Shown here in pieces: positions 1,810-57,152 of a DNA stretch of 64,000 nucleotides. Origin of the DNA: Hysterangium stoloniferum (taxonomy: Eukaryota > Basidiomycota > Agaricomycetes > Hysterangiales > Hysterangiaceae); NCBI GenBank assembly GCA_015178975.1, contig WHVD01000019.1, positions 372,001 through 436,000 on the forward strand, read 5' to 3'. Position 1 is the stretch's first letter. The number at the start of each line of letters is the position of its first letter. The translations under genes and the position numbers were made by a program. The notes beneath the pieces were generated by a model. That model was not told the DNA's origin, ran no database searches, and saw only the letters and a program-made list of their open reading frames with translations.

Positions 1810-2310
1810 CTTCCAAATATTCAAAATAATGATATTCTTTCTTTAACTTGCATGTTGATTTGTCATCCTTTGTTTGCCACCACTCTGGAAGATTCAGATG
1901 CTGAAATTGCTATACTTGCCAAAATGTCGAAGGTCAAAGAACTTCAATGTAAATGACAGAGGATGGAGGAGTTGAGGCAACAACAAGAGGAGGAGGAGGA
2001 GAGAGAGTTAATGTGGGAATTGAAGGAGGTGGAACAAGTGGAAAACACGAGTTGGAGCAGGTGAAGGCAGAGAAAGAAGCAGAGGAAAAGAGAAAGGAAT
2101 GGTTGTGGAAGGTGATGAAAGATTGGAGGTTGCGGGAAGAGGCAGAGAAGAAACAGCAGGATGCCATGGTGGAAGAACAGCAGTTGAAAGAGAAGTGGGA
2201 CAGAAAAGTAAGTGAGCTGGAAATGTTCCATGTATCCCTGATAACAGTAGACAACAGCAGAAAGCCAATGAAGTGGATGAGGAGGAAGAGGCTGGGCCTT
2301 CAAGTCTAAA

Positions 2311-2360
2311 GGTAAGTGATTTTGTAATAGTTTTGGAATATGACTAATTTCCAAAACAGA
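2311..2360 (+). other. predicted intron in accessory gene
   Basis: A GTAAGT donor, a branch-like ATGACTAAT and an AAACAG acceptor give an intron of about 50 nt. Removing it keeps the acidic exon (ending SSLK) in frame with the cysteine-cluster exon (starting KQKTRAP). Confidence 0.55.
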
Positions 2361-2524
2361 AACAAAAGACCAGGGCTCCAGAACAGATGGAGACTGCCCA
2401 CAAAATTCCATGTCAGTGTTGTGTGAGCTGGGGCATTACTTGTCGGAGACAGAAGGTAAGATGGGGTGGAACCTGTTTCCCTTGCATGGTAAACAAAATT
2501 CTTTGCACTCTCACTGTGAAGTGG

Positions 2525-3928
2525 TGTAGAGAGTTCAATCAGAAAGCAACTTATATGGTTATAGTTTCAAGTCACGTCACAAGCACAAATTCTTATATAT
2601 ACTTTGGCACTCAAGACAAATTCCACACAGCCAAATCAGTTTCATCAATCAGACATGCAAAAAACTCCATCATGTTCAACACTGCATCATCCTCCAAAGT
2701 AACCCTCAGTTCCTACTTGAAACTGACTCCTCACTCCCTAATAGAACTCCAGCCAATAACATCTCAATTCTCTTCATGCTCAGACATCATATGTGAGCCT
2801 GAACCAGCCTATTCATACTCCTCAAAGAAACACCGTTGTTACCTCCATCAAAAAGGTATTCGACCCCCATATGCTCCAGATGATCCTGTCTTTATCCATC
2901 TATATGATAACTCCCATGAACTCTTCCACTATTGATTCGATCAAGTACTCCGGTGAGAGTGTTCCTCACTGTCACAGGGATTCTTTTACAAGGCAGCATT
3001 CACTCCAGTAGGAGGTCATAGAGGAACCTTGGTGAGGATGTTCCCAGTTCAAGAAGGGAGTCAAGTAGAGCCTCGTCGAGGTCATTGCCAATTCATGTTC
3101 CTTGCATGGTTGTGGAGCCTACTCACCACCTGGTTCTAATGCAGATATTAGTTGCTCCTTCTTATACTGCAAAAGTAGGAACAGAACACATCCAATCTCA
3201 GTTCATCGATTGGTAGTATTGTCAAGATTTCAAAATCAAGCATAGCATTTGAGGGTGATGCATTATCATGGGATTCTTGAGTGTTTCTGACTCATTATCA
3301 TTGATCTTTCATCAGCCATCACTTCTATCACTCCATCTCTCCTATTGTCTGACTCAGTCTCCCCTATTGTTCTATTGTGTTTTCCCATTTATCTGTATCA
3401 CATGTCTGATCTTATCTTTTGTTTGTCATTCTCTTATTGTCCAGCACAGCCTCCCCTTTTATTATTCACAGCTTTACTAACATTCTTATTGTGATGATTC
3501 AGAGATGACTCACACCATATCACATTGTTATTGTGACATCATTTGTAGATGTTTGTTTGACCTGTGCTTCCTCATGTATATAAGGGCCTCTCTTTTGCCC
3601 ACTATTGAACAAGCAATTTCGTTGTATCTCATTTTGAAGCTCATTCTTAAGGACAATCTCTTAAGTCTTACTCTCAGTCTCACTCCTATGGCCAGTAAGA
3701 GATACTGTAGTGTCTCTTATTGTTGAAGTTCTACACTCCTCGACATTGGGCTTATGTCAGCCTTTTGTGTTCATCTTTGATTATGTCATCCAAGGTCTGA
3801 TCTCTAGCCTCTCGCCCCGAGTGTGTTTGGTTATAGACTGGTTTCATGAATGACTGTGTTAGTGACCATTATAAAGACTTGACCATTGCATGCAGGTTAT
3901 TAGGTATATTCCTAGTGACAAACTTACA
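2525..3928 (+). mobile_element. LTR-like insertion of 1.4 kb in the accessory gene
   Basis: It starts TG and ends CA, with the 4-bp duplication gtgg on both sides (2521-2524, 3929-3932). The accessory reading frame resumes after it when compared with the right copy. It contains a TATA-like TATATAAGG near 3574. Orientation is not fixed and no coding capacity is seen, so a long solo LTR is the best guess. Confidence 0.5.
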
Positions 3929-4274: not shown

Positions 4275-5680
4275 TGTTACAACCCATTCCCAGATGTTTC
4301 AATATCTGACTTCCGACCTCCAACTTCCAACTTCCAACCTCCAACTTCCGACTTCCAACCTCCAACTATGGAACATCATAGTTACCGTATCTTCCACATT
4401 CTTCCCTTGTTCTGCATTTGGTAATTTGTCCGTTGACAAGTATTCACTCGTTCGTCTATTATATTCCCATTTCGGAATATTGTCTCCCCGATATGTCTTA
4501 TTGTATTCCCGTTTTAGAATACTCCTATTTCTGTCTTATTATGGTCTTAGTTTGTAGTACAATAACGAGAAGACTTATATTAGTTTCCACGAATTTGTAC
4601 TTTACTTCAGATCTGATATCGACTTAGTTTCTTATTCCCTCTTCCATCTTTCTGTACACTTGATATTTGGAACTCTTCGGAACTCTGAATATCTGTATCT
4701 TCCATTGTAAGTCTCACCTCTGAAATTAAGGACTTTGAGCATTTGTGTAGAGGTGCAGCATATAAGCTGAAGCCAATGTCCTGACCCTATGTTAGGATAC
4801 GTACAGGGTGGGTTTCCAGAGAAACCTGCAGGATATCCAGTAGGACTTGGCTTCAGCTTATAGGCTGTGCCCTTGCTAGATCGTGTTGTCCAATTTCAGA
4901 CAGGTGGACGGGAATCCTGGGGAGTCCGGGCGGGGGTCGTGGGTCGGGGGATTGTAGGTCGGAGGTCGTGGGTCATGAGTCGAGTTTGGTAAGAGAGATA
5001 GATGTGCCGGAGCCCGTGGGCTCTGACTAGTGCGAGCAGTGTGATTCAAGTAGGGTTTTAGAGCGGAAAATGTATTAGATTACTGGGGGGAATCTAAGCT
5101 GATTTTCTGACTGGATTGTATGTACAACATCTGCCAGTTTAAATAGACCGTGGAGTGAATGTCATACTGAATCCAGTAATAATGAAACGGAATGAGCAAA
5201 ACATAAAACGGGAATAGTAAACAGCAAATTGGTGTTAGGAACAGGACGGAACAGAGCAGAGTCCGAATAGTGACAAATCATAAACCATAATGGGAAATGG
5301 AGCAGAAGTGGAGTCTGAATTGTGACAGGTCATTTGACTAAAACAGGAACGGGGCTCTGTTAGAGAGGTGATGGGTTTTCTGAGTGGGGTCCGGTGACTG
5401 ACACGCGGGACAAGGTCAGAAATAGACAGAGACGGAGTCCAGTGAGTATTCCGGTGACTGAAACACAATGTAATGAAGTCAAATGTAGACAAGTCTGATG
5501 TACGGAGTCCAGTGGGAATTCCGGGAAACTGATAATGGGTGCGTATAGGGCGCGGGTGGGTATAAGTTAGTGCCCAGAGTCTGGGTGGGATTTCCAGTTG
5601 TAACACCCTATCTGATAGTTCCCAACTTCCCGGTGACTTTCTGATAGTTCCGGAATAAGTTCCTGACATGGCACTTAACA
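4275..5680 (+). mobile_element. solo LTR, family B, split by an LTR C
   Basis: It begins TGTTACAACCCATTCCC and ends GGCACTTAACA, with TSD tgctg at 4270-4274 and 5681-5685. Removing the nested LTR C leaves about 585 bp, close to the intact solo copy at 43305-43848. It contains short TTCCAACCTCCAAC repeats near 4310-4365. Confidence 0.9.
4790..5605 (-). mobile_element. solo LTR, family C (inside LTR B)
   Basis: 816 bp in inverted orientation: the plus strand reads TGTTAGG...GTTGTAACA. TSD cccta lies at 4785-4789 and 5606-5610. It is similar along its length to the LTR at 62829-63646. Confidence 0.9.
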
Positions 5681-9851: not shown

Positions 9852-10571
9852 TGTTACGACCGTGTCGCAACCCTATCGGCCCCGAGGTTATCGCCACTTG
9901 TCAACGTTTCAAGTCGTCCCCTCGGAAACCATCGGCCCCGAAGCTGACGAATGTTTCGCGAAGATCAAACTCCATTTACGCCCACGTCAAATAACTCGTA
10001 TTGTCTGGTCAAACTTTGATACGTCCCCTTTATTATGTTGATCCGTTCAATCTTATGTTTCGCATATGTCTATCTATATTTGTAGTCCTCGAACCATTTC
10101 CTTTTATCGTAATTCCGCTCTCGGTTATCATCGGCCTCCGAACTAATCATAAACTTCCCGTTCCTAGTCAAGCTTATTGTTAATACCGTGTTCCGCCCTT
10201 CTCCCCATTAGTATTTTCCAGACGCCTGTTACTTGTATATGAACCCGCTGTAATTGTAGTTACTAGACAATCAGAATATCGACTCAGAACACCCTCATAC
10301 ACCTGTATCAGTCTCATACTAAGACTTCCCCCATCCGCCTTCGCGTGCGCTCGCCCACTCCCGGCCCCGACCCCTTGGCCCGACGCTCGACTTGTCCTTC
10401 GATTCCGATCGGTATCACGCTGAAAGGTACTCACTAGGACTAGTCTTCGCCCGCCCGAAATTTAAGGACATCCTGCGGATATTTGCGAGGGCGCAGCCCA
10501 TAAGCTGAAGCCAAGTCCTTCCGATCGGTCCCTGTCGGCCACCGACATTAGTCAGTTTCCAGTTCTTAACA
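9852..10571 (+). repeat. 5' LTR of element A
   Basis: 720 bp, TGTTACGACC...TTCTTAACA. Transcription is predicted to start at 10269, because the 11 nt from there are complementary to the primer site. The R-U5 part contains the conserved motif at 10484-10518. Confidence 0.97.
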
Positions 10572-10573
10572 GT

Positions 10574-10584
10574 ATATTCTGATT
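10574..10584 (+). promoter_or_regulatory. self-complementary primer-binding site of element A
   Basis: ATATTCTGATT lies 2 nt after the 5' LTR and is the exact reverse complement of AATCAGAATAT at 10269-10279 in the LTR. Tf1/sushi elements use such an 11-nt pairing of the RNA 5' end to prime reverse transcription without tRNA. No tRNA-like TGG site is present here. Confidence 0.8.
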
Positions 10585-10609
10585 TCACACTCGCATTTTC
10601 CGTCTAAAC

Positions 10610-11908
10610 ATGCCTCCGAGGAAAAATGCCAAGCCTAGCGGCGAAGCAGAATCTTCCACTCTCAAGTCTCCTTTTCTGTATACAGCCCGAGCTACTCAGA
10701 AAACTCCGCTACCAGAAACCTCCGAAGAATCTCGCTTTGTGGAGATTACCGGCGATGCTGAAGAAGTAACTGAAGCAACCGATCCCGAAGCAACTGAGGA
10801 GATTAACAATCAACCAGTTTCGGAACACGAACCCGAGGATGGTGACCAACCTCAGGCTAGTGGCTCCAAGAAGTCTGCAAAGAAGAAACCGGCTCTCGAC
10901 CCTGAAGAAACATGGGAATTGTTTTCAGGTACACTAGGATCCCTTAATGAATTCCTTAAAAGCAATATCAAGGAAAAGGAACCTGGGCAAACCCGAGTCA
11001 ACAAACCCGAGCCATTTACTGGCTCAAACCCGAAGAAATTGCCGACATTCCTTATGCAATGTCGATTCAACTTTCGGGACCGCCCGGCTGCATTCGCAAC
11101 GGATGACCGAAAGGTAAACTTCGCACTCTCATACCTTAAGGATTCCGCAGCAGCCTGGTTTGAACCCGCATTTTCTGGCCTCACCTCTGAAGACCCCGAT
11201 TGGCTCCACGATTGGGATGCCTTTGTCGAGGAACTCGAAACCAACTTCGGCCCCTACGACCAAACCGGCGATGCCGAAACCGCGCTTTCTAATCTCAAAA
11301 TGAAAGACACTCAGCGCATCACCGATTATATCGTCCAGTTCAACAACCTCGCCGCGCGTTGCGACTGGGGCGATTCGGCCCTCCGTTACCAGTTTTACTC
11401 CGGCCTTCCGTCTCGCCTCAAAGACGAAGTCTCCAAAGGAGAGACCGGCAAGCCGAAAACCCTCCCTCTCATGCGCCTGAAAGCCCAAAACGCAGACGCT
11501 CGATACTGGGAACGACGTTCGGAAATCAGTCGCGAAAACCCGTCGGACAAAAAATCATCGGACAACAAAAATGCCAATAAGTCTGGTAACCAAAACACCA
11601 ATATAACTGGCAACTCGACTTCCGATAAGAAGTCCGAAAACAAAGGGTCTAACGACAAAAAAGGCAAGGGCAAACAGTCGAATAAGTCTCAAGACAAAGA
11701 CAAACCCGACCTAACTGGCAAACTCGGCTCCGATGGCAAGCTCCTACCACAGGAAAAGCAACGCCGAATGGACAACAACCTTTGTTTGTTGTGTGCAGAT
11801 CCCGGACACCGAGTCGCTGCATGCCCAAAAGCCACAAAAGCCCGATCGGCCAACACGGCCACGACCTCACAACCGGCCAAGCCGGCTGCCGAGTCGAAAA
11901 AAGATTAA
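10610..11908 (+). CDS. gag: Gag of gypsy element A
   Basis: 432 residues, starting with MPPRKNAKPS, the first ATG after the primer site. An acidic N-terminal region is followed by the retrotransposon Gag core (about residues 130-300, including AAAWFEPAFSG, WDAFVEELETNFGP and YSGLPSRLKDE). A Lys/Asn/Ser-rich linker precedes a CCHC zinc knuckle (CLLCADPGHRVAAC, C-X2-C-X4-H-X4-C). Gag forms the particle and binds the RNA. The frame ends in TCG AAA AAA GAT TAA and overlaps pol, which lies in the -1 frame. The reading frame is intact. Confidence 0.95.
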   Translation: MPPRKNAKPSGEAESSTLKSPFLYTARATQKTPLPETSEESRFVEITGDAEEVTEATDPEATEEINNQPVSEHEPEDGDQPQASGSKKSAKKKPALDPEETWELFSGTLGSLNEFLKSNIKEKEPGQTRVNKPEPFTGSNPKKLPTFLMQCRFNFRDRPAAFATDDRKVNFALSYLKDSAAAWFEPAFSGLTSEDPDWLHDWDAFVEELETNFGPYDQTGDAETALSNLKMKDTQRITDYIVQFNNLAARCDWGDSALRYQFYSGLPSRLKDEVSKGETGKPKTLPLMRLKAQNADARYWERRSEISRENPSDKKSSDNKNANKSGNQNTNITGNSTSDKKSENKGSNDKKGKGKQSNKSQDKDKPDLTGKLGSDGKLLPQEKQRRMDNNLCLLCADPGHRVAACPKATKARSANTATTSQPAKPAAESKKD

Positions 11909-14900
11909 GCAACTCTCTGGATTCCGTGCGGTTGGAGAGTTGCGTTGAATCTCCTCGCACACCGGAAAATTGTCATCTTAACGCATCCGCATTGTATGAT
12001 CCTAATTCTTTGTTCATAAATCTTACTTCGGAACCTCTCGGGAGTTTCACTTTTCGAGCTCTCATAGATTCAGGTTCAACCCATTGTTTTATAGATACAA
12101 GTTTTTCCAGAAAAAATCAGTTGAAAACCTATGCAATAGATCCGATTCCGCTTCGACTTTTTGATGGTACCTCAAACTCCGTAATCTCGCAAGCCTGCGA
12201 ACTCCGACTTCGGTTCCCGTGTGGAACCTTTCAGACAGTTACGTTTTTTGTAACACAGTTGGACTCGAGCTGCTCCGTGGTTCTAGGACATAACTGGCTC
12301 ACCCGCTATAATCCGTTGATTGATTGGGTATTGGGCAGTATCCATTTCCGAACCCCGTCGGCACCCGATACGACTGTTCCGTTTCCGCCTGTTTCGGCAA
12401 ATATGGCCTCTACAGCACCTCCAGCCCCCGTGGCAAATCCGAGCTCTCCGCCGCCTGTCTCTCTAATAAACGCCGCAGCTTTTATGAGAGCCATCAATTT
12501 GGACGGCTCCCGAGCATTTACAGTCAATCTTAAAGTTGACGAAGTCACCGGTCGCTTTGCATCCCCGGTGACCGAACCGATCACAGATTTAGAAGGTGTT
12601 CCTAAAAAATACCATGAATTTGCAGATGTCTTCAGTAAACAAAAAGCCGATCGACTCGCCCCTCACAGGCCTTACGATTTGAAAATTGATATTGAAGATG
12701 GTTCACATCCGCCCCTAGGCCCAGTTTATCCTCTCTCGCAGTCCGAATTATCGGCTATCCGAGATTTCTTGGATGAACATTTGGCTATAGGTTTTATCCG
12801 ACCCTCAAAGTCTCCCTATGGAGCCCCTGTCCTATTCGTTCGGAAAAAAGACGGTTCCCTTCGACTTTGCGTTGACTTTCGAGGACTAAACGCGATTACT
12901 CGAAAAGACAAGTACCCATTACCATTAATCTCCGATTTACTCGACGCCCCTCGGAAGGCCCGAATTTATACAAAGATAGATCTCAAACACGCCTATCATT
13001 TGGTTCGGATCGCCGAAGGCGACGAATGGAAAACGGCTTTTCGCACTCGCTATGGCTCCTTTGAATGGTTAGTAATGCCTTTCGGCCTCACCAACGCTCC
13101 GTCGGTCTTTCAACGTTTTATCAACGATGTCTTTTCCGACCTCCTTGACGTCTTTGTCATTGTGTACCTAGACGACATCCTCATCTTCTCCGAAGACCCT
13201 ACACTTCATGATGAACACGTCCGTGAAGTCCTCCGAAGACTCCGAAAACATGGTCTTTTTGCGAATGGTAAAAAATGTTCTTTTGATGTCGACACGGTTG
13301 AATACTTAGGCTTCATGATGGGACCCGATGGTCTCCGCATGGACGACGCTAAAATTCAAGTCATTCAAGATTGGCCGGAACCCCGAAAGGTTAAAGATAT
13401 TCAATCCTTTTTAGGCTTCGCCAATTTTTATCGCCGTTTCATTCACAATTACTCAAAAATTACCGTTCCGCTCACTCGTCTTACTCGCAAAGACACCCCG
13501 TGGAATTTCTCCGAAGAATGCCGATCGGCATTCCAGGAATTGAAAAGTGCGTTTACATCCGCCCCTATCTTGTCGCACTGGAAACCCGACGTTCAACTCA
13601 TCGTGGAAACTGATGCTTCGGACTATGCGCTTGCCGCGATATTGTCCATTCTGGACACCGATGGTGAAGTACACCCAGTAGCTTTTCTGTCTCGCACATT
13701 TTCGGCGCCCGAACTCAACTACGACGTTCACGATAAGGAATTACTCGCAATCTTTGAAGCTTTCAAGACATGGCGACATTATTTGGAGGGCTCGGCCCAC
13801 CCGGTAGATGTTATTACAGACCACAAAAATTTAGTTTACTTTTCAACCACAAAACTTCTCACCCGTCGACAAGCTCGATGGTCCGAATACCTCTCCGCTT
13901 TCAACATGGTAATCCGCTTCCGTCCCGGCCGCCTTGGTGGAAAACCCGACGCTATGACTAGACGATGGGACGTCTATCCTAAAGAGGGGAGTAGCGACTA
14001 CGCCACAGTTAATCCGCATAATTTCAAACCTATGTTTTCATCGGAACAACTGTCCGCATCTATCCGAGCCACTTACCTCATTCATCCAGTCTTGCGAAGT
14101 GTTATCCTTATGGATACCGAAAAGTTACATCAAGACATGCTATCGGCAATTCCATTAGACCCAGTCACCAAAGCACACCTCGATAACCCGTCCGACCCCG
14201 ATCAGCCCCGATGGTCATTAGACTCACAAGGTTTCATTCGACTTGACAATCGCATTTATGTACCGGATTCCGACACCCTTCGGCTGCGAATCCTACAACA
14301 TAAGCACGACCACCCAATCTCAGGACATTTCGGCCTCAATAAGACCCTCTCACTCATTAGAAGAGAATATACATGGCCCGGCATCCGAGATTTTGTTAAG
14401 CACTATTGTAAATCCTGTACTACGTATTTACGCTCTAAATCACAGCGACACAAACCATATGGCCTACTCAAACAATTACCGATACCGGAAAAACCCTGGA
14501 ACTCGATCTCTATGGATTTTATCGAGCACCTACCGGCATCCTAAGGTCACACAGCAATCCTAGTTGTTGTGGATCGGCTCTCAAAGCAAAGTATTTTCAT
14601 TCCAACATATGACACGATAACATCTGTACAGTTAGCTGAATTATTCGTTACCCACGTATTTTCCAAGCATGGCGTTCCGTCGCATGTCACATCCGATCGC
14701 GGCTCCGAGTTTGTCTCTCACTTCTTTAGGTCACTCGGAAAAGCACTAGACATGAAGTTACACTTCACTTCGGGCTATCACCCGGAAGGCGATGGACAAA
14801 CTGAACGCATGAATCAAACCTTGGAGCAATACATCCGTGTCTATTGCAACTATCAACAAGACAATTGGAAATCACTACTACCGCTGGCCGAATTCGCATA

Positions 14901-15594
14901 CAACAACGCACCAAATGCCACTACTGGCATTTCGCCTTTCTTCGCAAATAAAGGCTACAACCCCAACATCGCAATCCACCCGGAACGCGATCTCGCATCC
15001 GCCCGTGCTCAAGACTTTGTTACAAACCTCGACGAGCTACATCAAGAACTTCGTAAAACTATCGCAATGGCTCAAGAACGATACCAACGGTCTGCGGATA
15101 AAAACCGACTTCCACCTCCTGATTTCAAGATCGGAGACCGAGTATTCGTTAAAGCCGAGTTTTTCCGAACTACTAGACCTTCTAAGAAGCTCTCTGAAAA
15201 ATATTTAGGTCCTTTCGAAGTTATAGCACAAGCCGGCACACTTTCATGGACGCTTCGGCTCCCCGACAACATGCGTGCAGTGCACCCGGTATTTCATGTA
15301 TCTATGTTAGAACCTTGTGTTCCTAACAATATACCGGATCGCATACAGCCACCACCTCCACCCGTGATTATTGATGGGGAACCCGAATTCGAGATATCAG
15401 AAATCCTAGACTCAAAAATCGACAATCGCCGACGCTCATGCAAATTACTTTATTTGGTCAAATGGGCTGGCTATGAAGGTACAGATGAAGAAACTTCATG
15501 GATCCTAGCTACAGAGCTCGGTAATGCCTCGGAAATCGTTTTAGGGTTTCACCAAGCTTATCCGAACAAACCCGGTCCTCTCAATTCCTTATAA
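11782..15594 (+). CDS. pol: Pol of gypsy element A: protease, RT, RNase H, integrase, chromodomain; one premature stop
   Basis: Open in the -1 frame relative to gag across the overlap 11782-11908. In order: protease (LIDSGSTHCFID), reverse transcriptase (YLDDILIFS; GLTNAPSVFQRF), RNase H (ETDASDYALAAIL), the integrase HHCC zinc domain (HPISGHFGLNKTL ... CKSC), integrase core (SMDF; TSDRGSEF; GQTERMNQTLEQ) and a C-terminal chromodomain (LYLVKWAGYEGTDEETSW). A TAA at 14542-14544 interrupts the frame just after EHLPAS. The same frame continues to 15594, and relics have a Glu codon there, so this is one point mutation. The copy is probably defective in integrase unless the stop is read through. 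Confidence 0.95.
11896..11902 (+). promoter_or_regulatory. candidate -1 frameshift site, gag to pol
   Basis: G AAA AAA, aligned with gag codons AAA AAA, sits one codon before the gag stop. Slipping by -1 enters the pol frame (continuing RLSNSLDSV). The D relic keeps an A-run at the same place (41882-41891). Confidence 0.5.
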
Positions 15595-15847
15595 GACTAT
15601 CACGCGGTACCCGACCTTTTTCCGACTATGCCTTATGTTTTCACGCTATGATTTGTTTGTTTAAAAAGAAAAACCGATATATTTCACTATCTAATTTTCT
15701 CCCTCTACAACTTCTCCCTCCTCTCCGACCTCCGAACCCACCTCCGCACTGACAGCCACCGATACCACATCACCGACCTTCTCCGAAACCCCAATTTCAT
15801 GCCCACCGCAACTCCAGCCTTGCGCTAACAGATATTGTCAGTAAGGT

Positions 15848-16174
15848 TCACAAAAGACACCAGAGCCGACTCACTTTTCCCTCCCGCTTTTTTTTCGCCG
15901 CCTCCTCCCGTGCCCGATCGGCCTCCTGCTGCTTGTTCTTTGCAAGCACTGCTTCCCAGTGCTTGCGCGCGGCCTCTTCTGCCGCCTGTTTCTTTTCCTC
16001 GGCCTCGATGGCCGCCAACTCCTCCTTCTCTTTCTGCTCCTCCTCTTCACGCGCCTTTTTCTTCTGCTCGAGTATACGCCGACGCTCTTTCGCGTTCGCC
16101 GTACCACTCGGCGCCGACATGGGCGCAACTGTTAACCTAACCGGGAAGGGCTTTGACCCCGAGCCTATGGTCAT
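15848..16174 (-). CDS. antisense accessory ORF of element A, charged coiled coil
   Basis: 108 residues on the strand opposite to pol, between pol and the 3' LTR. The context CACCATGACC is favourable, and TATAAAAG (minus, 16232-16225) lies about 50 nt upstream. A second in-frame ATG begins MSAPSGTANAKERRR. Most of the protein is a Lys/Glu/Ala-rich coiled coil (AREEEEQKEKEELAA, KKQAAEEAARKHWEA). It matches in position and composition the accessory genes of the family-D elements but lacks their cysteine cluster. Near its end a GTGAGT donor, TTACTGAC branch and TTAG acceptor (about 15877 down to 15828) may form an intron, so the C-terminus is uncertain. No known function. Confidence 0.65.
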   Translation of the reverse strand: MTIGSGSKPFPVRLTVAPMSAPSGTANAKERRRILEQKKKAREEEEQKEKEELAAIEAEEKKQAAEEAARKHWEAVLAKNKQQEADRAREEAAKKKREGKVSRLWCLL

Positions 16175-16224
16175 GGTGGTTAGAGGAAGGGAAGTGGAAT
16201 TTCAAGCGCCAGGAACTCTCAAAC

Positions 16225-16232
16225 TTTTATAT
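16225..16232 (-). promoter_or_regulatory. TATA box of accessory ORF, element A
   Basis: TATAAAAG on the minus strand, about 50 nt before the ATG at 16174. It lies inside the element, about 115 bp from the 3' LTR. Confidence 0.5.
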
Positions 16233-16347
16233 GCAAACTTTTGCCGAGTCACATGATGTTTGACACACCCAGCCGTACCCGACAAGTTTTTACGTACGGG
16301 ATCTAGATTTTCGGCCTCCTTGGGATTTCGGCCAAAAGGGGAGATAC

Positions 16348-17067
16348 TGTTACGACCGTGTCGCAACCCTATCGGCCCCGAGGTTATCGCCACTTGTCAA
16401 CGTTTCAAGTCGTCCCCTCGGAAACCATCGGCCCCGAAGCTGACGAATGTTTCGTGAAGATCAAACTCCATTTACGCCCACGTCAAATAACTCGTATTGT
16501 CTGGTCAAACTTTGATACGTCCCCTTTATTATGTTGATCCGTTCAATCTTATGTTTCGCATATGTCTATCTATATTTGTAGTCCTCGAACCATTTCCTTT
16601 TATCGTAATTCCGCTCTCGGTTATCATCGGCCTCCGAACTAATCATAAACTTCCCGTTCCTAGTCAAGCTTATTGTTAATACCGTGTTCCGCCCTTCTCC
16701 CCATTAGTATTTTCCAGACGCCTGTTACTTGTATATGAACCCGCTGTAATTGTAGTTACTAGACAATCAGAATATCGACTCAGAACACCCTCATACACCT
16801 GTATCAGTCTCATACTAAGACTTCCCCCATCCGCCTTCGCGTGCGCTCGCCCACTCCCGGCCCCGACCCCTTGGCCCGACGCTCGACTTGTCCTTCGATT
16901 CCGATCGGTATCACGCCGAAAGGTACTCACTAGGACTAGTCTTCGCCCGCCCGAAATTTAAGGACATCCTGCGGATATTTGCGAGGGCGCAGCCCATAAG
17001 CTGAAGCCAAGTCCTTCCGATCGGTCCCTGTCGGCCACCGACATTAGTCAGTTTCCAGTTCTTAACA
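16348..17067 (+). repeat. 3' LTR of element A
   Basis: 720 bp, with the two differences from the 5' LTR given above. It is preceded by the purine-rich AAAAGGGGAGA tract (16334-16344). Confidence 0.97.
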
Positions 17068-17850: not shown

Positions 17851-18809
17851 GAGGATAACCCAAAACTTTTAAAATGATTTATTCAATAAAGTATATACAT
17901 TCATAATGTTTGCTGTAGAATTAATATTTAATCAAATTCAGTTGATTAGGTATCACTCTGAAGAATGCAAAAATATTAATATTTATCCTATATCTGACAA
18001 AATTTAGTCAAACAATCATCTGTAGATTATTCTTTTGGAATAAATTGCACAATGGGGATTGGTACCCCAGATAGTTCTGGCTAACTCTCTAAACCAACCA
18101 AATTTAAATTATATGAAATATATTTGAAAGTTTGCTTGTATACAAGAGAATACATCATAACCCAAAGATTAAGTCATAACCCAAATAATCTAGGTTAACC
18201 CAAATAATCTAGGTTAACCCAAATAATCTAGGTTAACCCAAATAATCTAGGTTAACCCAAATAATCTAGGTTAACCCAAATAATCTAGGTTAACCCAAAT
18301 AATCTAGGTTAACCCAAATAATCTAGGTTAACCCAAATAATCTAGGTTAACCCAAATAATCTAGGTTAACCCAAATAATCTAGGTTAACCCAAATAATCT
18401 AGGTTAACCCAAATAATCTAGGTTAACCCAAATAATCTAGGTTAACCCAAATAATCTAGGTTAACCCAAATAATCTAGGTTAACCCAAATAATCTAGGTT
18501 AACCCAAATAATCTAGGTTAACCCAAATAATCTAGGTTAACCCAAATAATCTAGGTTAACCCAAATAATCTAGGTTAACCCAAATAATCTAGGTTAACCC
18601 AAATAATCTAGGTTAACCCAAATAATCTTGTGTAACTATGTTATTTGTGTGTATTTTAAAAGGGCATGCATATTTTAAAGATGAAATTTCAGATAATTAA
18701 ATATAAACTCATAGAATAAGTTGTCATGGCCAGAAAGAATAGTCTCACTTAAAGAATATGAGGGTTATTCAGTAAAATTTTGTATATTCAATAAAGTGTG
18801 ACCATCCTC
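17851..18809 (-). mobile_element. TIR element H (copy 1) with expanded tandem array
   Basis: Ends GAGGATAACC and ATCCTC form short inverted termini, with TSD ccaag at 17846-17850 and 18810-18814. Pol flanks join cleanly across it (GLLG to GGKLDAM). Outside the array it matches 58772-59389 and 44442-45824 in inverse orientation. Noncoding and MITE-like; superfamily unknown. Confidence 0.75.
18178..18628. repeat. 19-bp tandem repeat, about 24 copies
   Basis: The unit AACCCAAATAATCTAGGTT is repeated almost perfectly over about 450 bp. The junctions create the palindrome GGTTAACC. It lies inside H1 where the other H copies have only one to three related units. Confidence 0.97.
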
Positions 18810-29799: not shown

Positions 29800-30670
29800 T
29801 CTATAGGAGTGGTGCGCATAATTATATACATGCCCATGCCGTGAAAACGGGCTTGCAAAATTTATGGGCATTGAGTGAGTAATATATATTTGCAAATTGA
29901 AATGCTGACATGTCTGTGAATATGGGCTCAACGGCTCCTCGGTGATCTCAGTATATATTGCCGATGCCGAGGTGACCTTATTTTCCCAGGAATATATTGC
30001 CATAGACAAATAAAAATAGATTAGCTACCTTTTTTTTCATGATCCGGAATCCCTCCGCCGCACTCAATAACATCGTGAGGCTTAAACGAAAAACACCTTT
30101 TAAGGCGTTCCGAAGAATCCACCTAATACCTCCCTCCTACGTAGAGGCATTTCAGCAGTGTCCACTTGTGCCCAAGTTTAAAGCTAGCGACGAATTTGTA
30201 AATACAGCTTACAGCTCGGCTGGAGGACGGTTCAGTGCCGCTCGGCACCCGCTGCTGCGATCATCTCATAAAGTTCCAACCATGCGTATCGAGTGACACC
30301 CGAAATCCACTGGTTTCGCTGAAAAGAGCCGGATCCGAGTGATTTGTAAATTTTATGTCGACCTGCTAGCCGATGCTATGTAGATCTGGTAAGGTTCCAA
30401 CGACGTGTGATTGTGTGATTGGCAGGGTGTATACCAAGCACAACTTCCACACATCATCTTTATGCCTGTAGCCAGCATATATTGGCAGCCGCGCATTCCG
30501 GGTATGCTGGAGAGAAAGCTACTAATAGTAATTACGTGTTATTTTGGAAATCAGATATATATTCCTCTTTAAAGTCATCGGGGAGGCTAGGGGGGTTGTG
30601 AAACAGAATTATTCTATAATATTAGAGTAAAATTTAAACAATTAATATATATTGGCAAATTGAATGGTGT
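29800..30670. other. mostly noncoding; small ORF at 30039-30296 (+)
   Basis: An 85-residue frame begins MIRNPSAALNNIVRLKRKTP. It is basic, has no recognised domain, and composition like the host genes nearby. I cannot tell whether it is expressed. The rest holds nothing I recognise. Confidence 0.25.
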
Positions 30671-30673
30671 GAA

Positions 30674-30921
30674 TGTTAGAGTATGATATTACAGCTCTTA
30701 CATAGTCTATGATGTTACCTATATTTTTCTGATATTTGTAGTATTTTTCCCAGCACTGTAGGTGCAGTATTGAGTGAGTTACCTAGTAAGGTAACTGATG
30801 TGTAGGTGCTTAGGTAAGCACCCTGTAGTATACTCCGCTGTGGGTGTGGGAAAGTCTCCTTAGTGTTTACTTTCCTCACACTCACAGGGTGTTTGTCAAG
30901 AGTTATTCAACTGTTTCAACA
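30674..30921 (+). repeat. 5' LTR of copia element
   Basis: 248 bp, TGTTAGAGTATG...GTTTCAACA. Confidence 0.95.
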
Positions 30922-30935
30922 GGTTATGGGCCCTG
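30922..30935 (+). promoter_or_regulatory. primer-binding site for half initiator-Met tRNA
   Basis: GGTTATGGGCCC is complementary to the anticodon stem-loop of initiator tRNA-Met, not to the tRNA 3' end. Drosophila copia uses the same half-tRNA primer. Confidence 0.7.
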
Positions 30936-31522
30936 GCTTCTAAACCGGTACATCCAGTTGTCATCTGCGCAATCCATCACTTTGCACATCTTTTCTGACA
31001 ACTTCTACTTGTCCAAAACACTCTACATTGCGTTTGGATTTTATTTTGGTTATATCTCCTTGGATTTTGGCCTGATTTGGTCGCTTTTTGGACTCACATC
31101 TCACACCTGTGATTGTGCGCATTTATCGCCCATTTAGGCGCCCGTGTCTATAAATGGAAATATATTCCCACGCTCCAAATCGCTTGTCGTCGCTCAATTT
31201 CCCTTTTTTGGGCAACTTCATTTTTATCACCCTTGTGACTCACCCTGTCACACCCTGTCACCTCTCTCTCCAGTCACACTCTTCCCTCACACCTCAAGCA
31301 CTTCACAGTATCATCTGGGTCTGTGCCACGTCATTTTCCCTTTTTAACACGGTCTTTTAGATACATTGAACTTGAACTGTTGGCATTGTGCTCTTCAGTG
31401 GGCCTTTGTTTTTACCTTCCTTGCAATATCACGGTAACCCTGTTGAGCAAGGCGGTGTTACAACTGCGAGTCCAATTACTTAGTTCTTTTTAAGTTAAAT
31501 TCTTGGTGGATATTGACGTGTC

Positions 31523-32101
31523 ATGGCATCCAGTGATACTTACAAACGTAGTGTCATATTGGGAGAGAATAATTATGAGGATTGGAGACATGACGTAATT
31601 GGTCTTTTGCGTATGGAGAACTGTCTCTCTATTGCCACTGGCAAAGAAAAACAACCTAGTGAGACTAGTTTACAGTCTGCCTGGTTGGAGCGCTCCAATA
31701 AAGCAGCTGGTATCATATGGCGCTCTCTTGGACCTACACAGCGCACTCATGTTGACATTGATGATGGTCCTGATGATATGTGGTCTAAAATTGACAAGGC
31801 ACATAATAAACAACTCCCTGCAGTTCGTTTTAGTGCCTACAATGACCTCTTTAATATTCGGAAGGAACCTGATGAATCTCTAACTTCATTAATGAGTCGT
31901 GTTGACAAGGTTTGTGCACGTGTCCAGAACTTGCGTCCAAAGGGGTACACTCTTGCCATGCTGGATGATGAGCTTGCTGCTCTCACTTTACTTCGTTCTC
32001 TGCCTGAATCTGACTCTGTGTGGACTTCATCTTTAATGATGAATACTGCTATCACATTCTCTGATGTCAAAACTCACTTTGCATCACAAGAGAGTTTGTA
32101 G
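31523..32101 (+). CDS. gag: copia Gag (N-terminal part)
   Basis: 192 residues from MASSDTYKRSVILGENNYED to a TAG. It has the copia-type Gag fold region (NYEDWRHDVIGLL; WSKIDKAHNKQLPAVRFSAY; TLLRSLPESDSVW). The zinc knuckle lies beyond the stop in the same frame, so the TAG probably truncates a single gag-pol polyprotein. A C-to-T change from CAG is the simplest cause; deliberate readthrough cannot be excluded. Confidence 0.9.
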   Translation: MASSDTYKRSVILGENNYEDWRHDVIGLLRMENCLSIATGKEKQPSETSLQSAWLERSNKAAGIIWRSLGPTQRTHVDIDDGPDDMWSKIDKAHNKQLPAVRFSAYNDLFNIRKEPDESLTSLMSRVDKVCARVQNLRPKGYTLAMLDDELAALTLLRSLPESDSVWTSSLMMNTAITFSDVKTHFASQESL

Positions 32102-34054
32102 TCTGCCAGAAGTTTAGAGACGGCGAACAAAATTGTGTCAAAGACTTCCAACACTTCTGGTAAAGTTCCTTGCACATTCTGCAATGGTTCCACCCACACC
32201 CAAGACAATTGTTACGAGTATGCAAATGCACAGAAACAGGCAAAGGCCAAAGTTGAGCAGAAGAAAAAGGAGTATAAAGAAAGAAAGACTGCTAAGGCTG
32301 ACAAAGCTAATGTGTCTGACAAGGTATCAGAGGAGAAGAAACCAGAGAGTGCTGGAAATGCAAGTGTTTCTATCCCTGACTCTACTGATCCATCTTGTGC
32401 TCTCCTTGTCAATGCTAGTTCTGACTGGACTGCTGACACAGGTGTTTCTTCGCACATGACTCCCCATCGTCATTGGTTTTCAAGTTATACCCCATTTCAA
32501 ACACCTATCCAAGTTGCAAATGGACAAATAGTTATGTCTGCAGGGATAGGAGCAGTGCGGTTTAAGCCTAAAGGGAATGGAAATGTAATAATAGAGTTTG
32601 AAAGGGTTCTCCATGTTCCCCATCTCACAAGTAACCTCCTCTCCGTTTTGTATTTGACAAAGAGAAAGAATTTCCGTGTCTCTATCTTTCATTCCACCAT
32701 GTCTTTCTATTTGAGAAAGGTCTTGCGTTTCACTGCCACAGTCAATGAACATAACCAGGCCTATTTGGATGGAATGACGGTACCTATGACGGATTATGCA
32801 GGTCTTGTTACAACCTGTCCCTTGGACTCCACACTTTGGCATCATCGCTTTAATCATCTCAATCATGCCGATATCCAGAAGCTCCTCAAAGGTGATTTGG
32901 TTGGTGGGATAAAGATTGACTCTCACACGTCTCCTGATCCTATTTGTGAACCTTGTTTGGCTGGAAAACAGAACAGAGTGATTAATAAAATAGCAACAAC
33001 ACGCTATACTAAACCACTTGCACTCATTCACAGTGATGTTCATGGTCCCTTGCCTACACAAACTGTGGAAGGGTTTTGCTACTGGATCACTTTCATTGAT
33101 GATGCCTCACACTATGCTTCGATTGCATTACTCAAAAATAAGAGTGATGCTTTTCAGGCATTTAAGCAATATAAGGCTAAAGTGGAGAACTTGCTTGGTC
33201 AGAAGATCAAGATATTCAGAGATGACAAGGGTGGAGAATATATGTCTAAGGAGTTTGATACCTTCCTTTCCACTGCTGGCATCAGCCGGCAGCATACTGT
33301 GCGGAATGAACCACATCAGAATGGGGTTGCTGAACGCTTCAACAGAACATTGGAAGAAGGGGCTACTTCAATTATGGCTGAATCCCACCTCCCTCCCTCA
33401 TTCTGGGGACATGCTGTCATTGCCATTACTCATGTGCGCAACTGCTCACCTACCACTGCTCTTAAGCATTCTGTGCCTTATACTGTTTGGCATAGTAGGA
33501 AACCAGAAGTATCACATCTTAGGGTATTTGGCTGTACTGCTTATGTGCATGTACAGAAGGATCAACATATTGGACTTGGCTCTCATACACAGAAATGTGT
33601 CTTTATTGGATATCCTCCAGATTATAAGGGTTGGATGTTTTACAATCCCTTGACTAAGAAGACTATTATCAGTAATAATGCTGTCTTTGATGAGAGAGTC
33701 TTACCAGGCTTGTCTAAACCTGCCATACCTTCTACTCCTACTGCTCCTGATGTTCTTCCTGATACTCCACAATTTATTGATTTGTTTATTCCTGGACCCT
33801 CTAGGTCTATTCAGGTGGGAGCCCAGCCTAATCAGATGGGAGCTCCACAGGAACCAAATCCAGTGGGAGATGGTCAGAATAATGCTTTGCCTCCTGGTCC
33901 TAGTTCCAACTCTGATTCTAATTCTGAACATTCTGAACGTTCACCGAGTCCTCCTCCTCAACCACGTCGCAATCCACCCAGAAACAGAGTTCCTCCTAAG
34001 CGTTTCTGGCAAGTTGACCCTGCTCACATCCACAACTATAGAGAATCTAGTTGA
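32102..34054 (+). CDS. pol: copia zinc knuckle, protease and integrase (same frame as gag)
   Basis: A CCHC knuckle (CTFCNGSTHTQDNC) is followed by a protease with DTG motif (WTADTGVSSHMT). The GAG-pre-integrase zinc region comes next (LWHHRFNHLNHADI ... CEPC), then the integrase core with D, D and E in LIHSDVHGPL, FRDDKGGEYMS and GVAERFNRTLEEG. A proline-rich linker ends at a TGA (34052-34054) where the frame is lost. RT continues in the next frame. Confidence 0.92.
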   Translation, partial: SARSLETANKIVSKTSNTSGKVPCTFCNGSTHTQDNCYEYANAQKQAKAKVEQKKKEYKERKTAKADKANVSDKVSEEKKPESAGNASVSIPDSTDPSCALLVNASSDWTADTGVSSHMTPHRHWFSSYTPFQTPIQVANGQIVMSAGIGAVRFKPKGNGNVIIEFERVLHVPHLTSNLLSVLYLTKRKNFRVSIFHSTMSFYLRKVLRFTATVNEHNQAYLDGMTVPMTDYAGLVTTCPLDSTLWHHRFNHLNHADIQKLLKGDLVGGIKIDSHTSPDPICEPCLAGKQNRVINKIATTRYTKPLALIHSDVHGPLPTQTVEGFCYWITFIDDASHYASIALLKNKSDAFQAFKQYKAKVENLLGQKIKIFRDDKGGEYMSKEFDTFLSTAGISRQHTVRNEPHQNGVAERFNRTLEEGATSIMAESHLPPSFWGHAVIAITHVRNCSPTTALKHSVPYTVWHSRKPEVSHLRVFGCTAYVHVQKDQHIGLGSHTQKCVFIGYPPDYKGWMFYNPLTKKTIISNNAVFDERVLPGLSKPAIPSTPTAPDVLPDTPQFIDLFIPGPSRSIQVGAQPNQMGAPQEPNPVGDGQNNALPPGPSSNSDSNSEHSERSPSPPPQPRRNPPRNRVPPKRFWQVDPAHIHNYRESS

Positions 34055-35759
34055 GTCCAGTGATGAGGCAGAGGATTCTCCACTACATTCTCCTCCTCCA
34101 GTTGAGTCTGAGGAAGAAGCCCTAGCTGCCAGTGAGGGAGATCTTTACATTGGTGTGGATGAAGCCTTTGAGTTTGCCTACAAGGCCAGTGCTCATGATG
34201 ATGCACCGAGAACTCTCAAAGAGGCCTTACAAAGTCCTGATGCTGACAAGTGGTATGACGCTGCATATGCAGAAATGCAATCCCTGCTTGAAAATGGCAC
34301 TTTTCGCCTTGCTAAACTACCTGAGGGTCGTAAAGCTATTGGCTCTCGTTGGGTGTTTGTGATCAAGCGTAAGAAGGATGGGTCAATTGACAAGTTCAAA
34401 GCTCGTCTTGTTGCAAAAGGCTATGCACAACGACCAGGGTTTGACTTCACTGATACCTTTGCTCCTACTGCCAAATGGGCCACTTTGCGTGCTGTCCTAG
34501 CATTGGCTGCACTGGAGGACATGGAACTTGAGAGTGTAGATATCTCCTCTGCATTCTTGAATGGTGAACTTGAAGAGGAAGTAGACTTGCAGCAGCCTGA
34601 AGGTTTTCACCAAGGTGCTCGTGATGAGTTCTTACTTCTTCTGAAAGGACTATATGGTTTATGCCAGTCACCTCGTATCTGGCACAAGAAGTTGAATGCT
34701 GTCCTGCTCAGTTTGGGTTTCAAACAAGTGCTATGCGATCATAGCATTTGGGTCTTCCAAAAGGGTGATGTCAAAGTCATTATACCAGTATTTGTAGATG
34801 ACATGACTATTGCATCTAAATCCAAGGAGGCTATCAAAAAGCTCAAAGATGATCTAAAGATCCACTTCAAATTGCATGATCTTGGTCCTACTTCTTACTT
34901 GTTAGGTGTTGGCATTGAAAGAGACAGGACAAAGCGTACTATTACTCTATCACAGCGTCAATACATCTTGGACATGTTACAGCGTTATGGTCTTGCTGAC
35001 TGCAATCCCATTGGTACACCTATGATACCTAACTCAAAATTGAGTAAAGACCAGGCTCCAGTGTCTCCTGAAGAGATTGCATACATGAAGGACATTCCAT
35101 ACATCCATGCTGTTGGTTCTCTTATGTATTTGGCTGTTGCCACTCGTCCAGAAATTGCCTATACTGTTGGAGTATTAGCCAGATTTAATCACAATCCAGG
35201 AAAGGCTCATTGGCTAGCAGTACAACATCTCTTTCGATATCTCAAAGGCACCCTTGACTTGGGCTTGACCTTTGGCCCTAGTAATGACAGGGAATTGTTT
35301 GTGTCTTATTCAGATGCTGACCATGGAGGTGATAAGTCAACTGGAAAATCTACTGGTGCATATGTGGTTAAGATGGGTACTGGAGCCATTAGCTGGCAGA
35401 GCAAACTCCAGACTATTGTAACTCTCTCTACTACTGAAGCAGAGTATATTGCAGCAGTGTCAGCTGGTCAGGAAGTGCTATGGTTGCGAAACTTATTTGA
35501 GGAATTGGGATATCCTCAAAAGACTGCATCCACTTTGTATCTTGACAACCAATCTTCTATTGCAGTTGCCAGAGATCCTGAACATCATGGCCGTATGAAG
35601 CATCTGGATTTGAGAACATATTGGTTAAGGCAGGAAGTTGATAGTGGGAAGATCAAAGTTGTTCATCTCCCTACTTCAGAGATGCCTGCTGATTTATTGA
35701 CAAAACCATTGGCTAAGCCAAAGGTAGAATACTTACGAAAACTACTGGGACTAGCATAG
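34038..35759 (+). CDS. pol: copia reverse transcriptase and RNase H
   Basis: The coding frame enters around 34038 (IENLVESSDEAEDS), +1 relative to the integrase frame. RT motifs: WVFVIKRKKDGSIDKFKARL, ESVDISSAFLNGEL, GLYGLCQSPRIW, FVDDMTIA (the catalytic VDD with F in place of the usual Y). RNase H motifs: YSDADHGGD, LSTTEAEYIA, LYLDNQSSI, KHLDLRTYW. The stop at 35757 is just before the 3' LTR; CAGGTGGGAG at 35771-35780 is the likely polypurine tract. Confidence 0.93.
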   Translation: MENLVESSDEAEDSPLHSPPPVESEEEALAASEGDLYIGVDEAFEFAYKASAHDDAPRTLKEALQSPDADKWYDAAYAEMQSLLENGTFRLAKLPEGRKAIGSRWVFVIKRKKDGSIDKFKARLVAKGYAQRPGFDFTDTFAPTAKWATLRAVLALAALEDMELESVDISSAFLNGELEEEVDLQQPEGFHQGARDEFLLLLKGLYGLCQSPRIWHKKLNAVLLSLGFKQVLCDHSIWVFQKGDVKVIIPVFVDDMTIASKSKEAIKKLKDDLKIHFKLHDLGPTSYLLGVGIERDRTKRTITLSQRQYILDMLQRYGLADCNPIGTPMIPNSKLSKDQAPVSPEEIAYMKDIPYIHAVGSLMYLAVATRPEIAYTVGVLARFNHNPGKAHWLAVQHLFRYLKGTLDLGLTFGPSNDRELFVSYSDADHGGDKSTGKSTGAYVVKMGTGAISWQSKLQTIVTLSTTEAEYIAAVSAGQEVLWLRNLFEELGYPQKTASTLYLDNQSSIAVARDPEHHGRMKHLDLRTYWLRQEVDSGKIKVVHLPTSEMPADLLTKPLAKPKVEYLRKLLGLA

Positions 35760-35780
35760 AGCTGTCTCATCAGGTGGGAG

Positions 35781-36085
35781 TGTTAGAGTATGATATTACA
35801 GCTCTTACATAGTCTATGATGTTCCCTATAGTTTTCTGATATTTGTAGTATTTTTCCCAGCACTGTAGGTGCAGTATTGAGTGAGTTACCTAGTAAGGTA
35901 ACTGATGTGTAGGTGCTTAGGTAAGCACCCTGTAGTATACTCCGCTGTGGGTGTGGGAAAGTCTCCTTAGTGTTTACTTTCCTCACACTCACAGGTATGT
36001 AGTTATTTCACAGTTGAATACATTAAGTGTTTACTTTCCTCACACTCACAGGGTGTTTGTCAAGAGTTATTCAACTGTTTCAACA
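35781..36085 (+). repeat. 3' LTR of copia element, with 57-bp expansion
   Basis: 305 bp. It differs from the 5' LTR by two transversions and an extra 57 bp that carries a second copy of AGTGTTTACTTTCCTCACAC and flanks. Confidence 0.93.
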
Positions 36086-49208: not shown

Positions 49209-49210
49209 TA

Positions 49211-55633: not shown

Positions 55634-57152
55634 TTAGTTCAATATTTCCAGTACTCCAAATCCCTCCACTTCAACTCCCATCTCATCTGAAATCTCTGTC
55701 CTAATTTCCACTCCCTTCACCATTTCCTGTATCTCCTCATCTTCACTTTCCAGCTTTTCTCCCAATACCCACCTCTTCTCAACCATATCCACCAATGGAC
55801 CATTCAGCTGGTCTTTTTCCTTATTGGCATATCTTTCAGAAACTGCAATTATGCTGATACTGACCATTACCTTCTCCAAGAATTTGTTTGGTCTCCAGAA
55901 GTTTTGATTCATCATCTGGAATCCCTTTTCTTGCATGTCATTATGATGCTCTAAGGTTTCCTGAGTTTTCATCAACTCCATCCTGATAAATACCATCACA
56001 TTTACAGTATCTCTGAGGAGTCTGATACTGGTATCATCTTCCACACTTGGCCCTACAGTTTCTAAGGCTTGGTTGTTTCCAAGGTTTCTGCAATCACTAT
56101 TTTTTCAGCCTTCTCCATTTTTTTCCACCTTTTTTTGGCCTTCTGAACCTTTTGCTTTTAAAGTCTGCTTCACAGCAAGAGCACACAGAATCTTGTTTAC
56201 CCTGTACATATGTTCCACCCCATTTTACCTTCTGTCTCCAACAAGTAATACCCTGGCTTGTACATCACTGACACAGAACTTTGTGGGCAGTCTCCACATG
56301 TTCCAGAGCCCTGGTCCTTTGTTTCTGTTTCAGATATTAGTCACATTCTGGAACTCTTACAAAACAATTCACTTTTGGACTCAAAGGCCCAGCCTCCTCC
56401 TCATTCACTTCATAAGCTTTCTGCTATTGTTTTCCATTATTGGAAACATGTGGAACATTACTGGTTCACTCACCTTTCCATCCCATTTAGCCTCTGCTCT
56501 TCTGCCTCGGCATTGCTGTTTCTTCTTCACCTCATCCTGCAATCTCCAATCCTCTGCTATTTTCCAAAACCATTCCCTCCTCTGCTCCTCTTTCTCTTTC
56601 TCCACCTTAATCCACTCCAACTCATGCTTTTCCACCTCTTCCACCTCTTCCACCTCTCTCAACTCCCATGCCAACTCTTTCACCCTTGTAAGGCTGTGGT
56701 ATCAGCCTCACTCAGTTGGTAACAGATAGGACAGAATTATTATGTTGGGTGATTCTTCTCTACTCTAAGACAGATGTTTCTTCTAAAATATAGGGATCGG
56801 AACCCTATAGTATTTGCAAGTCTATATTGGGGTAAGAAGAGATGAGGGTCCCAACCTTGGTCCAGATCCACTGGGAGGGGAGTATGGAGAAACTGATCTT
56901 ATTGAGTCTCATCTCAAGTTGGGCTCGGTGAGAGGGAATAATTAGAGTGCAGTTGTGGTTGGCCATGTCTGTGTAGTAAGTTTGTGTGGTAAGACTTCTG
57001 GGATCACACACCTCCTCTTGTTGTCACCTTACCTCCTCCATCCTCTGTTATTTGTGTTGAAGTTCTTCAACTTTCAACATTTCAGCAATTTCAGCTTCTG
57101 AATCTTCCAGAGTGATGGTAAATAAAGGATGGCAAATTGACATGCAAGTCAT
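55634..57152 (-). pseudogene. antisense accessory gene, family D right copy
   Basis: Minus strand, from ATG (57152; MTCMSICHPLF-like start with LEDSEAEIAEML). A charged coiled coil follows (KHELEWIKVEKEKEEQRREW, 56683-56405), then a decayed cysteine cluster (56310-56190, where several Cys codons are changed). The C-terminal domain (56044-55634) has DDTSIRLLRDTVNVMVFIRM, EKVMVSISIIAVSERYA and an acidic tail ending VEGFGVLEILN. About 320 bp of foreign sequence interrupt it near 56690-57010. A TATA-like box lies at 57199-57194. It is the better-preserved copy for the C-terminal domain. Confidence 0.65.

Follow-up and report, generated by a model that had tools for sequence, protein, structure and literature searches.

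In this study, we found that a Ty3/gypsy retrotransposon of the basidiomycete Hysterangium stoloniferum carries an additional gene on the strand opposite to gag and pol, and this antisense gene is very probably protein-coding and spliced, with the splicing predicted from the DNA. The intact gene consists of three exons and is located between pol and the 3' LTR in the related copies of the genome. The window, which is the whole stretch of 64,000 nucleotides analysed here, contains one copy of the gene in an element named A and two in elements of family D (D1 and D2), and the features of these copies are collected in Table 1.

Element A is a Ty3/gypsy element with Pfam matches to gag, RT, RNase H, integrase, SH3 and the chromodomain. 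Its two LTRs differ at 2 positions in a 720-bp alignment, and the element is bordered on either side by TAACT; therefore, element A (9852-17067) looks like a recent insertion. The pol frame is interrupted by a single in-frame TAA at 14542. A purine stretch was observed immediately upstream of the 3' LTR (16348).

The initial annotation described a 108-codon antisense ORF in this element, and such an ORF is present on the minus strand at 15848-16174, with the start context CACCATGACC, the end of pol (15594) on one side and the 3' LTR on the other. The TATA box reported upstream of the ORF was also found (TATAAAAG, 16231-16224), 57 nt before the ATG. However, the ORF turned out to be only exon 1 of a larger predicted spliced gene, which is about 2.7 times longer. 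Its last eight codons (VSRLWCLL) and the stop codon fall within the predicted intron, and exon 1 ends at 15875.

The window copy of the gene is a deletion derivative. A comparison with an intact copy (L002) revealed that 492 nt are missing, beginning after the initial ten bases of exon 2 and reaching to the late part of exon 3. The rest of exon 2, intron 2 and the early part of exon 3, including a six-cysteine cluster and a heptad stretch, were lost, and the remaining tail is out of frame; thus, the window copy is a broken allele that cannot make the full protein. A separate exon 3 in the window copy, which was an impression from the alignment, was ruled out by the longer loci that revealed the deletion. 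Two other copies (L035 and L082) showed different internal deletions within the antisense gene.

Table 1. Position of the antisense genes and of the other features of their elements in the window.
Feature	Position	Strand	Remark
TATA box of the antisense gene, TATAAAAG	16224..16231	-	starts 57 nt 5' of the ATG
Exon 1, 100 codons, charged (E/K/R) helix	15875..16174	-	omega 0.14 without CpG sites in 22 open copies; no frame-breaking length change in 67 copies
Predicted intron 1, 50 nt, GTGAGT..CTGAC..TTAG	15825..15874	-	GT-AG and CTRAY across copies
Exon 2, initial ten bases, then deletion junction	15815..15824	-	492 nt absent compared with L002
Exon 3 remnant with the acidic tail and the stop; not in the frame of exon 1	15691..15814	-	
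Element A 3' LTR, TGTTAC...TTAACA, then TAACT	16348..17067	+	720-bp alignment
Element A 5' LTR, TAACT before it	9852..10571	+	
Element A gag	10610..11908	+	Pfam Retrotrans_gag
Element A pol: protease, RT, RNase H, integrase, SH3, chromodomain	11821..15594	+	
D1 TATA-like box, TATAAAAA	1802..1809	+	50 nt before the ATG at 1852
D1 predicted intron 1	2208..2257	+	exon 1 precedes, start approximate
D1 exon 2, QKANEVDEEEEAGPSSLK	2258..2311	+	
D1 predicted intron 2	2312..2359	+	
D1 exon 3 six-cysteine cluster, CX2CX6CX10CX2CX6C	2411..2506	+	stop-free
D2 antisense gene, decayed, insert in exon 1	55634..57152	-	stop 55636-55634
D2 intron 1	56473..56424	-	
D2 exon 2	56423..56373	-	
D2 intron 2	56372..56325	-	

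A protein search of the genome from which the window comes (111 Mb, 554 contigs) gave at least 150 copies of exon 1 with 66-100% amino acid identity, a lower bound as 150 of 323 candidates were scored. This number of matches greatly exceeds what chance would give. The DNA search of the same genome, in which 40 of 247 candidates were scored, gave close copies only. We checked a set of 67 copies that excludes the window copy and is composed of 7 close and 60 distant ones. Conservation of the ORF in other copies, which the initial annotation had expected of a selected gene, was seen both in the number of matches and in exon 1, where length changes that break the frame were found in none of the 67 copies. 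In intact copies such as L002, the exons have a length of 300, 84 and about 495 nt, all in phase 0, giving a product of about 292 amino acids. Intron 1 has about 50 nt and intron 2 has 45-63 nt in the related copies. The GT-AG borders were kept in 66/67 copies for intron 1 and in 65/67 for intron 2, and intron 1 harbors a branch-like CTRAY in 64/67. The TATA-type box is also conserved as had been proposed: 61 of 68 copies have TATAAA at a distance of 54-59 nt upstream of the start.

The length changes are distributed differently between exons and introns. Frame-breaking changes were found in 0, 3 and 18 of the 67 copies for exons 1, 2 and 3, respectively, while changes that are not a multiple of three were found in 17/67 copies for intron 1 and 34/67 for intron 2, exon 3 being about ten times as long as an intron. 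Because the copies were searched for with exon 1, its undisturbed frame is in part a matter of ascertainment, which does not apply to exons 2 and 3 or to the introns. The antisense gene is fully open in only 22 of the 67 copies. Three deposited H. stoloniferum proteins were found, and the predicted junction of exons 1 and 2 is present in two of them, as is that of exons 2 and 3 in two. A deposited hypothetical protein of this fungus with 306 amino acids (P0004) has a DUF6533 N-terminus joined to antisense exon 1 and exon 2 sequence, which reflects either a fused gene model or a true fusion between host and element.

In the predicted product, exon 1 encodes a charged helix and exon 2 an acidic segment, and exon 3 of the intact copies encodes CNRCTKRGRTCHPRTNGRGRTCQECADQKLGC, a heptad stretch and an acidic tail. 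Zn2Cys6 proteins have the consensus CX2CX6CX5-12CX2CX6-8C, and in Gal4-type factors the cluster is followed by a linker and a coiled-coil dimerisation segment. The cysteines of exon 3 are arranged as CX2CX6CX10CX2CX6C, which is a Zn2Cys6 spacing. This exact spacing was found in 62 of the 67 A-type copies, 8 of which have a stop inside, and it did not arise in any of 200000 shuffles of the exon 3 product. The heptad pattern after the cluster (residues 186-251) was equalled by 20 of 5000 shuffles. The product had been described as a coiled-coil protein, a label that overlooks its main feature, the six-cysteine cluster with the heptad stretch. The heptad score of the exon 1 helix was reached by 2623 of 5000 shuffles; exon 1 is without a heptad pattern, and the heptad stretch is in the part of exon 3 that the window copy has lost. 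A coiled coil in exon 1 was rejected, and we describe this part as a charged helix.

The spliced product showed no match to Pfam Zn_clus up to an E-value of 10, so the term Zn2Cys6-like is used here, and membership of this family is not claimed. It resembles the Zn2Cys6 (Gal4-type) factors in the spacing of the six cysteines and in the heptad stretch after the cluster; it differs from them in the missing Zn_clus match, in its origin from an antisense gene of a retrotransposon and in the long charged helix before the cluster. Other Pfam matches of the spliced product were at chance level (best E 0.57), and the 108-residue ORF matched no Pfam family at E 0.001. The Zn_clus family (PF00172) was placed at 52 sites in the genome, none of them on the listed antisense-gene copies when compared by eye. 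For PF24626, which was searched in the genome for other element families, 150 of 2638 candidates were scored. A PDB search with a part of exon 3 gave no convincing match (best E 0.43). The protein search with the 108-residue ORF alone gave 195 candidates and none at E 0.001. The search with the spliced product (E up to 0.001) gave two proteins, both from Hysterangium, and that with a profile of 10 sequences (E up to 10) gave three, all from Hysterangium. No homologue outside Hysterangium was found among the candidates listed, a list crowded by E/K-rich words.

The initial annotation also pointed to equivalent genes in two family D elements of the window. These were found to be homologous to the gene of element A by their intron positions, by exon 2 and by the cluster, which the profile of the A copies matched in D1 in the hhalign comparison (E 1.5e-5, probability 79%). 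The TATA-like boxes noted for these genes are present as well: the D1 box precedes position 1852 by 50 nt, and the D2 box precedes position 57152 by 47 nt. On the other hand, the genes are not intact ORFs as had been thought, being decayed and interrupted. By eye, the D1 gene has at least one, probably two, insertions in exon 3 (about 2530-3870 and about 4280-5650), and the D2 gene has a non-homologous insert in exon 1 with approximate limits of 56700-57060.

We compared 30 sequences of family D, namely the two window copies and 28 loci, leaving out one incomplete sequence. GT-AG was present in 23/30 for intron 1 and in 19/30 for intron 2. The length of exon 2 is a multiple of three in 22/30, and its product is mostly acidic and ends in SPK or SLK. 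Exon 3 resembles KQKTRAPE..CQ.CVSWGITCWRQKVKWGGTCFPCMVNKIPC. The exact cysteine spacing was found in 8/30; six of these have a stop inside, and window D1 and L071 are stop-free. The D copies are old and decayed. Judged by the common intron positions, acidic exon 2 and cluster, the antisense genes of A and D share ancestry. The identity between A and D is 68% over 111 amino acids of pol and 29% over 38 columns of the cluster; thus, evolution seems to be faster in the antisense protein than in pol.

Other repeats were also observed in the window. The copia element at 30666-35995 (gag_2, integrase, RVT_2) has no room for an antisense gene because its last ORF ends 13 bp before the 3' repeat. There are two long tandem arrays, at 18025-18750 and 52671-53330, with units of 19 bp and 20 bp, and an inverted repeat at 49209-49692 with arms of 160 nt that are 98% complementary and 164 nt apart.

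By analogy with HBZ, we propose that the spliced antisense gene of this chromovirus lineage encodes a nuclear DNA-binding regulator of the element, a proposal for which we consider the chances to be about even. The protein of about 292 amino acids would be composed of the charged helix, an acidic stretch, basic NLS-like patches, the cluster, a short linker, the heptad stretch and the acidic tail. Its introns could persist through retrotransposition because the genomic RNA that is reverse-transcribed holds them in antisense, where they would remain unspliced; antisense placement would thus let a retroelement retain introns. The protein would enter the nucleus, dimerise via the heptad stretch and bind by its cluster to CGG-type half-sites in the LTR and promoter of the element. 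Its acidic segments may contact the transcription machinery, and in this way sense transcription might be tuned or silencing countered. The sequences themselves support a conserved promoter position, conserved intron signals, selection on the coding product and a layout like that of DNA-binding proteins; that the gene is transcribed and spliced in vivo, and that its protein binds zinc, enters the nucleus, dimerises, binds DNA and acts as a regulator, is inferred.

The same product may instead be an RNA- or particle-associated factor that takes part, for example, in the export or packaging of the genomic RNA, like the CERV protein of the C. elegans element Cer1, with a cluster that would bind zinc and contact RNA or protein instead of specific DNA. 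We consider this unlikely; the exact Zn2Cys6 spacing of the cysteines followed by a linker and a heptad stretch, as in Gal4-type factors, speaks against it. The lack of a match to the DNA-binding Zn_clus profile and the long charged helix fit such a factor, and a retroelement-encoded nuclear RNA-export factor has a precedent (PMC10309623).

A regulator that binds DNA was considered together with the motifs of the LTR, which were counted in the stretch 16346-17065, two bases off the LTR ends (16348-17067). CGG-N0-11-CCG occurs 6 times in the LTR compared with 2.35 expected, a number reached by 6 of 300 shuffles. Plain CGG/CCG showed no enrichment (30 compared with 27.7 expected). Zn2Cys6 proteins are known to bind CGG triplets. 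In the LTR and promoter together, CGG-N0-11-CCG, which was the motif set a priori, was not significant (30 of 300 shuffles). TCGGCC occurs 6 times in the LTR and promoter (0.45 expected, 0/300 shuffles) and CGGNNCCG occurs 3 times in the LTR (0.18 expected, 0/300 shuffles), both being motifs picked post hoc. The four CpGs of the motifs were kept in 188/238 cells and the other thirteen in 457/777 among the 60 distant copies, which is a modest difference, and in the 40 close copies one motif CpG belongs to those with lower retention (35/40). This motif excess is a lead to candidate target sites, and the predicted binding of the antisense protein to its own LTR is a tentative assumption. Likewise, it is conceivable, if rather doubtful, that a Gal4-like spliced antisense factor binds CGG palindromes in its own LTRs and promoter and forms a self-regulating circuit.

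In the 60 distant A-type copies (L079-L138), 60-67% of the CpG cells were kept. The decay was alike in the LTR part, the promoter, exons 1 and 3, and intron 1, which has one CpG. This uniform decay across the regions suggests that the element copies are methylated. In Arabidopsis, VANC protects VANDAL elements from CpG methylation. The antisense protein may similarly be an anti-silencing factor that shields the element from CpG methylation, not a promoter-specific activator or repressor. The CpG decay throughout the element is consistent with such a role; the present results give no distinction between it and ordinary transcription control, and we regard this alternative as quite unlikely.

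The initial annotation had suggested selection on the antisense gene. We calculated dN/dS (NG86) for 300 of 1910 eligible pairs. The median in the antisense frame was 0.23 in exon 1 and 0.24 in exon 2, and the two parts of exon 3 had medians of 0.24 and 0.16. Apart from the mirror sense frame, 14 of the 16 values of the other frames and segments were 0.89 or more, and the two exceptions (0.49 and 0.70) belong to exon 2, a segment of only 84 nt. The divergence of third codon positions is about twice that of the other positions in the exons; intron 1 is flat by position and intron 2 is uneven (0.18, 0.28, 0.21). Single-change omega in the 22 open copies was 0.33, 0.44 and 0.36 for exons 1 to 3. 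As CpG decay could bias these estimates, omega was recounted without CpG, TpG and CpA contexts. The 22 open copies then gave 0.14 for exon 1, 0.18 for exon 2 and 0.24 for exon 3, and the whole set of 67 copies gave 0.16, 0.31 and 0.19, respectively. The values are well below 1 (0.14-0.24 without the CpG sites in the open copies), in agreement with the selection claimed. These results indicate that the coding strand is the antisense strand and that it is under purifying selection.

An antisense transcript could also act as RNA, as a decoy or a source of dsRNA, with an incidental reading frame. Antisense transcripts are described as possible regulators of elements or as feeding silencing (PMC7264820). 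However, frame-specific purifying selection, with exon lengths mostly preserving the frame and intron lengths being free, makes this explanation highly improbable. It is extremely improbable that the ORF is open by chance as the mirror image of a coding frame on the sense strand. In the window copy, an open sense frame does lie opposite exon 1 (15753-16256, plus strand), and values are lowered in the mirror frame as well (median dN/dS 0.25-0.42, pooled pN/pS 0.33-0.45). However, the mirror frame shares the wobble position, its values exceed those of the antisense frame in all four segments, each sense frame is interrupted by 3-12 stops over the length of the gene in the 8 intact copies that were examined, and the splice signals point antisense.

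The initial annotation was unaware of a description of this gene in fungi. However, an antisense gene named brtn was already published in 2011 by Zhao et al. for the Boty-like elements in Botrytis cinerea (cited in PMC8365987, PMC7264820 and PMC4227169), so this kind of antisense accessory gene is already known in fungi. The Boty-like element is described as a gypsy element with a CHROMO domain and an additional antisense gene (PMC4227169, PMC8365987). In PMC7264820, brtn is also reported in Sclerotinia sclerotiorum and is grouped with the antisense ORFs between pol and the 3' LTR, and a BRTN-like transcript of Monilinia is mentioned in PMC5987419. PMC8365987 states that the most recent annotation for the genome of B. 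cinerea B05.10 does not include brtn. The brtn gene is similar to ours in being an extra antisense gene of a fungal chromodomain gypsy element; its hosts are ascomycetes, while the Hysterangium gene is from a basidiomycete. In the open literature, outside of which most subscription journals lie, we found no report of such an antisense gene in a basidiomycete, nor of one that has a zinc cluster or conserved introns, although either feature may be part of the original description of brtn.

Antisense ORFs between pol and the 3' LTR have also been described in the plant elements Grande, RIRE2, Retand and PvRetro13 (PMC7264820). Gene23 of Grande was reported to have its own promoter and to encode a nuclear protein (PMC7264820, PMC11963269), and for the TRP28 proteins of Retand, which were likened to the antisense genes of HTLV, DNA binding was predicted (PMC11963269). 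The text of PMC11963269 on TRP28, as far as available, contains neither the word "intron" nor "zinc". Both PMC7264820 and PMC11963269 describe the antisense genes close to the 3' LTR as having an unknown function. The zinc-cluster-like layout, the splice sites, the selection and the candidate LTR sites make this question directly testable in Hysterangium, and searches with a single ORF catch only fragments of such genes. The plant genes of Retand, Grande and RIRE2 are similar to the Hysterangium gene in position and orientation and are present there in most copies; Retand differs in belonging to the non-chromovirus plant elements, and TRP28 has a different domain.

HBZ is a bZIP factor with a spliced form and an acidic domain. 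In HTLV-1, it is an antisense-encoded nuclear retroviral protein that is important for the life cycle (PMC11963269), and the antisense promoter of this virus is located in the 3' LTR (PMC7264820). The Hysterangium protein shares with HBZ the antisense coding; HBZ differs from it as a bZIP protein of an animal retrovirus with its promoter in the 3' LTR, and the analogy is a functional one only. If the proposed circuit is true, it would be comparable to that of HBZ in HTLV-1, and it would be built on a zinc cluster and kept across diverged families of retroelements.
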